Below, one piece after another: positions 4,075-41,302 of a DNA stretch of 55,668 bases. The notes beneath the pieces were generated by a model. The model saw only the letters and a list, made by a program, of their open reading frames with translations, was not told the DNA's origin and searched no databases. Position 1 is the stretch's first letter. Each line of letters begins with the position of its first letter. This DNA is from Candidatus Baltobacteraceae bacterium (GTDB taxonomy: Bacteria; Vulcanimicrobiota; Vulcanimicrobiia; Vulcanimicrobiales; Vulcanimicrobiaceae). Location: assembly GCA_036559195.1 (NCBI GenBank), contig DATBTN010000027.1:1-55668 (forward strand), written 5' to 3'. The position numbers and the translations under genes are program-made.

Positions 4075-5040
4075 GTGCGAGTAGCAGTAGTAGGTGCCGG
4101 CGCGATCGGCGGATTCATCGCTGGAGCTCTGGCCCGCGCGGGCGTCGACGTCGCGGTCGTCGCGCGCGGCGCGCACCTGGAAGCCATCAAGCGCAACGGC
4201 CTGCGCGTACGTGGCGAACTCGGCGATTTCACGGTGGACGTGCCGGCCTCGTCGGATCTGCGCGAACTCGGCTCCTTCGACTTTATTTTAGTGACGCTGA
4301 AAGCGCATCAGTGGGATGCGGTTCTGCCGCAGTTCGAACCGTTTCTACACACGGAAGCCACGATCGTTCCGATGCAAAACGGCATTCCGTTTTGGTATTT
4401 TCCGGATCGTTCGCTGCACAGCGTGGATCCGGGCGGCCGGCTGCGGCACATGTTTTCGGACGACCGAGTCTTGGGCGCGGTCGTTCACGCGTCGGGCAAT
4501 ATCCCCGAACCGGGCGTCGTCGCGCAGATGGGCGGCAAACTCTATCCGATCGGGGAAATCGACGGCCGGTGCAGCGATCGCGTCGAGCGGTTCTCCGCTC
4601 TGTTGATCGCCGCGGGGCTCGAAGCGCCGATCGAGCCGGCGATTCGCCGCGCGCTTTGGCGCAAACTCTTGGGCAACGTCTCGCTCAATCCGGTCAGCGC
4701 GCTCACGCGCTCGAGCGTCGCCGCGATGATCGACGACCCGCAGACTCGCGCGCTCTTGCGAGCTTTGATGGAAGAAACGATCGCGGTCGCCTCGGCCGTG
4801 GGGTGCGATCCGCAGATCGATGCCGAAGAACGCATCGGCTTTGCGTCGCGGCTCGGCAACGTTAAGACCTCGATGCTGCAGGATCTCGAAGCCGGACGCA
4901 CGCTCGAACTCGACCCAATCGTCGGCGCGGTCGTGGAACTCGCCCGCGAATACGGCGTCGCCGCAACCCACATTGAAACCGTCTACGCCCTAACCAACCG
5001 CCTCAACGCCCAATCGCATGCTTCGACAAGCTCAGCATGA
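4075..5040 (+). CDS. ketopantoate reductase family protein (PanE/ApbA-like)
   Basis: A predicted NADPH-dependent reductase of 321 residues. The N-terminal Rossmann motif GAGAIGG (7-13), QNG (101-103) and the C-terminal helical-domain motif WRKLLGNVSLNPVSAL with Lys197 and Asn201 match 2-dehydropantoate 2-reductase, which makes pantoate for coenzyme A. The family includes paralogs acting on other 2-oxo acids, so panE is not certain. The start is the GTG at 4075, downstream of a GAGAG. It follows tRNA-Cys by about 20 bases and may share its transcript. The last residues (about ASTSSA) and the stop codon are read from a palindromic repeat, suggesting that the repeat replaced the original C-terminus. 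Confidence 0.88.
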   Translation: MRVAVVGAGAIGGFIAGALARAGVDVAVVARGAHLEAIKRNGLRVRGELGDFTVDVPASSDLRELGSFDFILVTLKAHQWDAVLPQFEPFLHTEATIVPMQNGIPFWYFPDRSLHSVDPGGRLRHMFSDDRVLGAVVHASGNIPEPGVVAQMGGKLYPIGEIDGRCSDRVERFSALLIAAGLEAPIEPAIRRALWRKLLGNVSLNPVSALTRSSVAAMIDDPQTRALLRALMEETIAVASAVGCDPQIDAEERIGFASRLGNVKTSMLQDLEAGRTLELDPIVGAVVELAREYGVAATHIETVYALTNRLNAQSHASTSSA

Positions 5041-5213
5041 CAAGGCCCCCCTGTCATCCTGAGCTTGTCGAAGGACGACAAGCGCACGCATCGACAACGC
5101 TGCTTGTCATCCTGAGCCTGTCGAAGAACGACAAGCTCATGCATCGACAGATTCATGCATCGATAGGCTCACCACTACAAAGCCCCCCTGTCATCCTGAG
5201 CTTGTCGAAGGAC
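5017..5213. repeat. cluster of four palindrome-type interspersed repeats
   Basis: Four copies of a 22-26 bp unit lie here. One is inverted (5021-5042, reading CTTCGACAAGCTCAGCATGACA). Three are direct (5052-5076, 5105-5129, 5189-5213, reading TGTCATCCTGAGCTTGTC and then GAAGGA or GAAGAA). The first and last direct copies also share a run of C and a G-rich right flank, about 36 bp nearly identical. The inverted and first direct copies could pair in RNA. The same unit forms a second cluster at 40862-41302. The region up to recG holds nothing else recognisable. Confidence 0.9.
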
Positions 5214-39223: not shown

Positions 39224-39276
39224 AAGACGAAGGTCACAGGGGGCCGAATGGTAGCGTTACGAGATAAAGGGGGCCC

Positions 39277-39801
39277 ATGATGGAACAGGTCTACCTCACC
39301 GCCACCGAGGCTCCGGTCGCTCACGCCCGAGTCGATGCGCTCGTTCGCGAGCATCAAATGAAACTCGCGCGCTATCTGCGCCGGATGGTCGGCGACCCCG
39401 ACGTGGCGCTCGATATCGCCCAAGACGTATTTTTTGCGGCCTACCGCACGCTGCAGGCCGATCCCGATCGGCTGCTCACGGCCGGCTGGCTGTATCGGAC
39501 CGCTACCAACTCGGCCATCTCGTATTTGAGGAGAAAGAAGATTCTACGATTCACGCCGCTGGAACGCGATCAGGAAGTGCGCGGTTTGCGCATCGACGAG
39601 CGCAGCGCGGCGTCGATCGATTTGCAGATGGCGATGTCCCGCTTGCCGGGCGATCAGGCGTCGGCCATCATGCTCACGAGCTACGCCGGCTACTCGTCGC
39701 AAGAAGCCGCGGCGATCTTAGGTACCTCCGCCGATGCCGTTCGTCAACGCGTCTGTCGCGCGATGAAGACGCTGCGAACCGTGATGTCGGAGCGTGAATG
39801 A
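39277..39801 (+). CDS. ECF-type RNA polymerase sigma factor
   Basis: A 174-residue sigma-70-family factor containing only regions 2 and 4. Region 2 is ALVREHQMKLARYLRRMVGDPDVALDIAQDVFFAAYRTL and GWLYRTATNSAISYLRRKK; region 4 is LPGDQASAIMLTSYAGYSSQEAAAILGTSADAVRQRVCRAMKTLR. AAAGGGGG precedes the ATG; a second ATG one codon later is equally possible. It overlaps the downstream anti-sigma gene by four bases (ATGA), the normal sigma/anti-sigma arrangement. Confidence 0.95.
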   Translation: MMEQVYLTATEAPVAHARVDALVREHQMKLARYLRRMVGDPDVALDIAQDVFFAAYRTLQADPDRLLTAGWLYRTATNSAISYLRRKKILRFTPLERDQEVRGLRIDERSAASIDLQMAMSRLPGDQASAIMLTSYAGYSSQEAAAILGTSADAVRQRVCRAMKTLRTVMSERE

Positions 39802-40853
39802 CCGATAGACTTCACGATCGAGCGGAGATGCTCGCGGGCGCAATCGCTCTGGGCGAGGCGACCGACGGCGAACGACGCGAGTATCGGCAACATCTTGCCG
39901 GCTGCTCGACTTGTTTGCAGGCGCTGGGAGGCGAGCACGAACTCGAACGTACCGCGGCGATCGTGGGAGCCGCACGCGAGTGCGAAGTGTGGCAGCCCGA
40001 TCTGAGCGACGCCGTCGCATCGAAGATGCAGGCGCGTAAACGCGTCTGGCGCTTTGGATTGAGCGTTCTCGGAATCTGTCTTGCGGTTTCATTCGTCTTG
40101 CACGTCGCGATTGCGAGCGGCCTCGCACATTTGACGCCGACGCTCGCCGATCCGCTGGTCTTGAATTACGGCGGCATGCGTATCGCGCTCGAACGCCGGG
40201 GACCGGTGCCGAAATCGCCGCCGCCGGTCGCGCAACGCCGAATGGTCGTCGTGCATAACGTCGTGCAACTCTCGCGCGCGCCGGTTGCGAATGTGGCGCC
40301 AGCGACCGATCGCGGAAGCAAAGCCGAGCCGACCTCCGCGCCGCGGCAGATCGCCGCGGCCATCGTGCATCCCGATCCGCAAACGGCCGATCCCACGGGC
40401 GCGCAGAGCAACGTGCCGATCTGGCGCCGCGGCGCCGGCGCCGATACCTGGCATACGATCGCGAAGACCACGACGACCGCGTTTACGGAGAGCGCCCCTC
40501 AGGTCATGAACGGACGCCTGGAGTCGATTCAAATCGCGGCTACCTACACCACGCGAGACGCCGCGCCCATCGGCGGCGATACGGCAATCAACCCGCAGCC
40601 GCCGATGATCGCTACCGACGAGGGCGCGCAAGGGACCGCGGTCTTTGCGGTCTCCATTGACGAACGCGGCGTTCCGACAAAATGCACGATCACGAAATCG
40701 TCGAACTACCCGGTACTCGATACGACCGTCTGCAGCGCGGCGATGAAAGCGCATTACACGCCCAAAACCGTGAACGGCAAAGCCGTCCCAGGCGTGTACA
40801 CCGACGCCTTCACGTTCCGCAACGACAACGGCACCGAAGGCCTCTCCAACTAG
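39798..40853 (+). CDS. anti-sigma factor fused to a TonB C-terminal domain
   Basis: A 351-residue protein with an uncommon combination. The cytoplasmic N-terminus carries the zinc anti-sigma motif HLAGCSTC (His32, Cys36, Cys39). A membrane helix follows (about 86-107). A Pro/Ala-rich periplasmic linker leads to a TonB-like C-terminal domain (about 265-343: GTAVFAVSIDERGVPTKCTITKSS, then VNGKAVPGVYTDAFTF), in which two cysteines (296 and 312) may pair. The ECF factor it overlaps by four bases is its likely target. The layout could couple TonB-box binding to sigma release; that is inference. It precedes the repeat cluster. Confidence 0.88.
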   Translation: MTDRLHDRAEMLAGAIALGEATDGERREYRQHLAGCSTCLQALGGEHELERTAAIVGAARECEVWQPDLSDAVASKMQARKRVWRFGLSVLGICLAVSFVLHVAIASGLAHLTPTLADPLVLNYGGMRIALERRGPVPKSPPPVAQRRMVVVHNVVQLSRAPVANVAPATDRGSKAEPTSAPRQIAAAIVHPDPQTADPTGAQSNVPIWRRGAGADTWHTIAKTTTTAFTESAPQVMNGRLESIQIAATYTTRDAAPIGGDTAINPQPPMIATDEGAQGTAVFAVSIDERGVPTKCTITKSSNYPVLDTTVCSAAMKAHYTPKTVNGKAVPGVYTDAFTFRNDNGTEGLSN

Positions 40854-40861
40854 TTCTCTGG

Positions 40862-41302
40862 ACTCATCGAAGCACGAGCCTTTCGAGGCGATGTGCGCGC
40901 CGACTCGCGTCCTTCGACAAGCTCAGGATGACAAAGAGCGGGGCAACCCTATGATAAAAAGCGCCGTTACCCTTCGCGTTGTCATGCTGAGCTTGTCGAA
41001 GCATGAGCCTTTCGAAGCGAACGTGCGCGACAACTCGCGCCCTTCGACAGGCTCAGGATGACAAAGAGCGGGGTCACCCTATGGCAAAGAGCGGGACACC
41101 TATGACAAAGAGCGGGGCCACCCCATGATAAAAAGAGGCGTTGCCATTCGCGTTGTCATGCTGAGCTTGTCGAAGCATGGGACTTTCGAGAGCGATGTGC
41201 GCGGCGACTCGCGTCCTTCGACAGGCTCAGGATGACAGGGAGCGGGCGGCGTTGTCATGGTGAGCTTGTCGAACCATGTCCTTCGACAAGCTCAGGATGA
41301 CA
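40862..41302. repeat. cluster of palindromic interspersed repeats with internal 22-bp tandem repeats
   Basis: This gene-free stretch of about 460 bases is nearly all repeat. Forward units TGTCATGCTGAGCTTGTCGAAGCATG lie at 40980-41005, 41154-41179 and, variant, 41253-41278. Inverted units CCTTCGACARGCTCAGGATGACA lie at 40911-40933, 41041-41063, 41215-41237 and 41280-41302. Between them is a conserved TTTCGARGCGA...ACTCGCG spacer. The forward and inverted units pair as imperfect hairpins. After 41063 a 22-bp element (CTATGRCAAAGAGCGGGG plus four bases) is tandemly repeated about three times and explains the 130 versus 174 bp period. No terminator or other gene is seen. Confidence 0.92.

Follow-up and report, generated by a model that had tools for sequence, protein, structure and literature searches.

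Anti-sigma domain and TonB C-terminal domain on a single chain in a conserved ECF sigma factor pair of uncultured soil bacteria

Cell-surface signalling as described so far makes use of an anti-sigma factor and a TonB that are separate proteins (PMC11637429), in agreement with what an earlier note on this DNA had stated. In the FecA-FecR-FecI and FoxA-FoxR-FoxI systems, an anti-sigma factor with one membrane helix reads the outer membrane and holds an ECF sigma factor, and TonB-ExbBD takes part in the pathway, while FecR and FoxR are distinct from TonB and bind the signalling domain of the receptor. The route by which the outer-membrane event reaches the anti-sigma factor is debated even for the well-studied systems, and release of the single-helix anti-sigma factors of cell-surface signalling occurs by regulated proteolysis (PMC11637429). 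A TolA/TonB-like C-terminal domain within ECF signalling is found in VreA of the PUMA3 system of P. aeruginosa (PMC2729926). In VreA, the TonB-like domain is joined to the receptor signalling domain, with VreR as anti-sigma factor and VreI as sigma factor on chains of their own; VreA is the nearest precedent for a TonB-like domain in such a system, though on the receptor side. Further known relatives are the ZAS factors RslA, RsrA and ChrR, of which RslA is membrane-associated and binds zinc through His25, His50, Cys54 and Cys57 (PMC2877774). On the side of the energising proteins, TonB and TolA of E. coli have the common helix motif Ser-x3-His-x6-Leu-x3-Ser (SHLS), and TonB touches ExbB through the first two of these residues, Ser16 and His20 (PMC12215075).

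The locus analysed here lies in a stretch of 55,668 nucleotides (contig DATBTN010000027.1 of assembly GCA_036559195.1; hereafter the window) from a Candidatus Baltobacteraceae genome (2.48 Mb, 80 contigs), the named relatives of which belong to Candidatus Eremiobacterota. Directly downstream of an ECF sigma factor gene, it encodes a fusion protein in which a predicted zinc anti-sigma domain, one membrane helix and a TonB C-terminal domain follow each other. Like RslA, RsrA and ChrR, the fusion has an N-terminal H/C...H-x3-C-x2-C domain and is encoded beside an ECF sigma gene, with the same H-H-C-C ligand set as RslA, whereas these three factors have no TonB domain. With TonB it shares a predicted cytoplasmic N-terminus, one S-x3-H helix, a long periplasmic linker and a TonB_C domain in the same order; it differs from TonB in its 85-residue zinc domain on the cytoplasmic side, in a linker that is not strongly Pro/Lys-rich, in a helix motif that is not universal and in a gene position next to an ECF sigma gene, unlike TonB genes placed with exbBD. 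In contrast to FecR and FoxR, the fusion contains no FecR domain (Pfam gives zf-HC2 and TonB_C only), and no TonB-dependent receptor was noticed among the conserved neighbour genes examined, some of which were profile-scanned. As no published report of a zf-HC2/TonB_C fusion was found in the open-access literature, the architecture appears to be new relative to that literature, while signalling by separate proteins and VreA were already known.

The sigma factor gene and its zinc anti-sigma partner

The sigma factor of 174 residues (positions 39277..39801, plus strand) matches Pfam Sigma70_r2 (2.2e-13) and Sigma70_r4_2 (1.5e-12) and thus holds sigma-70 regions 2 and 4 without region 3, as is typical of ECF factors; NCBIfam sigma70-ECF is matched with 68.7 bits (cut-off 42.9). 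Its reading frame overlaps by 4 bp (ATGA) with that of the fusion protein of 351 residues (39798..40853, plus strand), which is delimited by the open reading frame list, Pfam matches and orthologues. Both frames are present where the earlier note had placed an ECF sigma gene followed by a 351-residue protein.

Orthologues were searched in 149 genomes of the phylum using the fusion protein and the sigma factor as queries, the latter at E<=1e-40. The sigma factor was found in 60 genomes, as a single copy in each and all within one family of uncultured soil bacteria of Candidatus Eremiobacterota, to which the orthologues of the fusion are likewise confined; counts across these related genomes, here and below, are not independent. 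At 60/60 loci the sigma gene lies directly upstream of the anti-sigma gene, and the co-occurrence with ECF genes for which the earlier note had proposed a survey is thus without exception. Spacing between both genes ranges from -8 to +9 bp at loci with an assigned start codon, two loci requiring a start codon other than ATG, GTG or TTG. Since many neighbouring genes, including the upstream moaA, are common to the 41 loci compared, the pair occupies a single orthologous place. Among plasmid records, a single match was obtained, which comprises TonB_C only.

The N-terminal part of the fusion (residues 1-67, positions 39798..39998, plus strand) is a predicted zinc anti-sigma domain, which probably binds the sigma factor. 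With residues 1-70 alone, the Pfam zf-HC2 profile scores 22.9 bits (9.5e-5), which is above the cut-off of 22.2 by a small margin, and with the whole protein 19.9 bits (7.8e-4), which is just below it; NCBIfam reports tonB_Cterm and, weakly, RsrA. Because this single-sequence score is marginal, the zinc assignment is based on the family motif. His32, Cys36 and Cys39, already pointed out in the earlier note, are invariant in 60/60 orthologues, and a fourth ligand overlooked there, His6, completes the motif of the window protein (H6-x25-H32-x3-C36-x2-C39). With either His or Cys at position 6, 60/60 orthologues carry [H/C]-x25-H-x3-C-x2-C; GGE at 44-46 and W65 are conserved as well. In addition, 28/31 complete members match zf-HC2 at E<=0.01, and the best PDB match of a family profile of the N-terminal region is RslA (3hug; 4.5e-4), a zinc anti-sigma factor.

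Upstream of the sigma gene, a conserved element GTCAC-N17-CGTT (39233..39259, plus strand) ends 17 bp ahead of the start codon. GTCAC together with CG[TC]T is present at 59/60 scanned loci with sufficient upstream sequence; 57 of them have a spacing of 17 bp and the remaining two one of 16 bp. The pattern GTCAC-N17-CGTT occurs once in the window versus 0.16 matches expected by chance. The element looks like an ECF promoter serving autoregulation, and the sigma factor would presumably use it as such.

Membrane helix, linker and TonB domain

The one membrane helix claimed in the earlier note corresponds to the only hydrophobic segment of the protein, at about residues 88-106, and the preceding K/R residues suggest that the N-terminus is cytoplasmic. 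On the basis of hydropathy and of a comparison with TonB_C and zf-HC2 proteins, the helix region was assigned to residues 88-113 (40059..40136, plus strand), which include S98-x3-H102-x6-L109-x3-T113. Up to 30 TonB_C and 30 zf-HC2 loci were sampled from relatives for this comparison, and S-x3-H is present in the predicted helix of 24/27 non-fusion TonB_C proteins versus 0/25 other zf-HC2 proteins, the latter having been chosen by best domain score irrespective of ECF pairing. Among the orthologues with a complete TonB_C, 20/34 have S-x3-H and 26/34 have the His, while those lacking TonB_C have S-x3-N in 8/11 and Asn in 10/11 cases, and neither S-x3-H nor S-x3-N occurs in those with a truncated TonB_C (0/15 each); the Fisher value of 6e-7 given with these within-family counts ignores relatedness and is not a probability. 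In E. coli TonB, Asn in place of His is reportedly tolerated. In about 7/34 complete members, the key position of the helix is taken by R, Q, E, W or another residue in place of His or Asn, and hence coupling to ExbBD cannot be general. The idea of an energising TonB, put forward in the earlier note, gains support from the helix, which carries S-x3-H as in ordinary TonB; the proposed signalling step is weakened by the missing His in roughly 7/34 complete members, by the truncated TonB_C in most of one genus and by the S-x3-N of orthologues that lack TonB_C. Moreover, as S-x3-N is kept in orthologues without TonB_C, the polar helix residue may have another role.

Between the helix and TonB_C lies a poorly conserved periplasmic linker (about residues 113-262, 40134..40583, plus strand; delimited by regional identities) of about 150 residues with 17 Pro, which, judged by its length, would be long enough to cross the periplasm. 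Two motifs are conserved in it, namely (V)VVVHNVV at residues 149-156 (about 40242-40265) and VPxWRR at residues 206-211 (about 40413-40430).

The TonB C-terminal domain (residues 255-342, 40560..40823, plus strand) had been claimed from the sequence before, and the profile search then proposed detects Pfam TonB_C at residues 267-340 with 52.1 bits (9.2e-14; cut-off 24.6). The same profile is matched by 31/31 intact complete members, in all of which C296 and C312 are invariant and in which the last strand, GxYxDAFTF, is nearly so. Across these 31 proteins, mean pairwise identity is highest for TonB_C (66%), followed by the anti-sigma domain (60%), and lower for the HNVV motif (44%), the helix (28%) and the remaining linker (22-29%). 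An AF2 model of the C-terminal domain is of moderate quality (mean pLDDT 57, core blocks 71-82), and its top Foldseek matches are solved TonB, HasB and FusB domains, with a best E of 4.2e-3 and none at E<=0.001. The AF2 model of the whole fusion is poor (pLDDT 46) and gives no sign of the HNVV strand pairing with TonB_C; hence, no claim is based on it.

Three architectures and the possible function of the fusion

According to inspected translations, the 60 orthologues comprise 34 with a complete TonB_C, 15 with a truncated one and 11 with none, where three of the 34 (G049 and G073, cut by contig ends, and the frame-broken G034) were classed by partial matches. The fusion is thus real and conserved, neither a one-off nor an assembly error, which confirms the architecture and the ECF pairing that the earlier note had described. 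All 15 truncated forms belong to one genus, g5, and cover most of its members. In a tree of the sigma factors, a branch with support 100/100 separates the 11 orthologues without TonB_C from all others, and three state changes suffice to explain the distribution. Since this tree is unrooted (branches to a distant ECF outgroup measure 7-10 changes per site), neither gain nor loss of TonB_C is claimed.

As a side observation, at the g5 loci L042-L047, L061, L083-L089 and L091 TonB_C stops short of its last strand and the helix has lost its His, a natural loss series in which the sigma pair is retained. The g5 truncation indicates that sigma and anti-sigma factor can be kept as a pair even where no functional TonB domain is present.

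The reading preferred here, which we consider about evenly balanced between right and wrong, takes the fusion as a TonB that bears an anti-sigma head and couples sensing of the outer membrane to control of the sigma factor. The zinc domain would keep the ECF sigma factor encoded beside it bound on the cytoplasmic side of the inner membrane, while helix and long linker would extend the TonB domain through the periplasm, so that it may pair there with the TonB box of an outer-membrane receptor or with another TonB-binding partner. This engagement, possibly together with force from ExbB/ExbD on the helix, would alter or expose the fusion, e.g., to intramembrane proteolysis, and the freed sigma factor would transcribe its own operon from GTCAC-N17-CGTT and further targets. 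The domains, the gene coupling, their conservation, the TonB-like helix motif, the promoter-like element and the presence of ExbBD and receptors are observations, whereas sigma binding, topology, energisation by ExbBD with contact to ExbB, the receptor, the release step and promoter use are parts of this reading that we infer. That the TonB is itself the anti-sigma factor, with ExbB/ExbD and the receptor acting on one chain and with engagement or force freeing the sigma factor without a separate signalling domain, appears rather unlikely.

A passive sensor, in which ExbB/ExbD is uninvolved and no force is transmitted, is a tentative alternative that falls clearly short of an even chance, and it accounts for the data nearly as well as the best reading because the helix motif is incomplete and S-x3-N persists without TonB_C. 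It fits several complete members that have lost the helix His (to R, Q, E or W) and retained TonB_C, a periplasmic part that varies between complete, truncated and none at constant sigma partner and promoter, the release of one-helix anti-sigma factors by regulated proteolysis (PMC11637429) and the invariant C296 and C312, which could be structural or redox-active; on the other hand, it leaves unexplained both the S-x3-H motif (24/27 ordinary TonB_C versus 0/25 zf-HC2 proteins) and the 150-residue linker. Alternatively, the protein could be a transport TonB with a sigma-binding head, the head counting or localising TonB or the sigma factor adjusting TonB supply, so that the TonB domain would not control the sigma factor. 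The presence of TonB_C and of true-TonB helix features as well as the apparent autoregulation of the sigma/fusion pair would agree with this role. Nevertheless, we consider it improbable. The same genome has exbB-exbD-exbD-tonB-tonB at G000:C57 about 118813-121873, i.e., two ordinary tonB genes beside exbBD, together with 12 TonB_C and 10 TonB-receptor plug-domain matches overall, and given these ordinary tonB genes the fusion is not required for transport. Furthermore, a sigma gene accompanies every orthologue, including 26 in which the pair is kept without a complete TonB_C, so that the sigma function is apparently primary. Finally, the truncation of TonB_C in 15 g5 genomes could be taken as a sign of a TonB domain that decays as a mere passenger, or of a fusion produced by faulty assembly or gene calling, but the frame is continuous in independent assemblies from many genera and no other part of the complete members is as well conserved as TonB_C, so that this explanation is largely refuted and barely credible.

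If the preferred reading of a TonB with an anti-sigma head is correct, a TonB arm and an anti-sigma domain on one chain would reduce the outer-membrane signalling problem to one molecule, and the arrangement suggests that outer-membrane contact could directly switch on genes. This can be tested by point changes in helix and TonB domain, for which nature already supplies controls in the series of complete, truncated and absent TonB domains at one genomic place, where sigma partner and promoter-like element stay the same.

Candidate target sites and further observations

In a scan of the own genome and five relatives for the promoter pattern, no convincing regulon was found: the number of exact sites is 8 for the own genome and 3-9 for the relatives, control counts are similar in several relatives, and sites besides the sigma promoter lie mostly within other genes. 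Sites near exbB in three relatives were discarded as they are located within a coding frame. A weak target lead is the match at G000:C43:12694-12720 (L160), 62 bp upstream of a predicted AraC-like regulator.

Directly upstream of exbB in the own genome, the frame L195:3304-4641 (G000:C57) encodes a predicted secreted protein with TPR repeats and a weak TonB_C match, and similar long TonB_C frames are located near exbBD in relatives. Within the window, a 22-bp repeat, CTTCGACA[AG]GCTCAGGATGACA, is present in both orientations at 40912-41302, just 3' of the fusion gene (6 copies), and at 5021-5210 (4 copies), while none is expected by chance.
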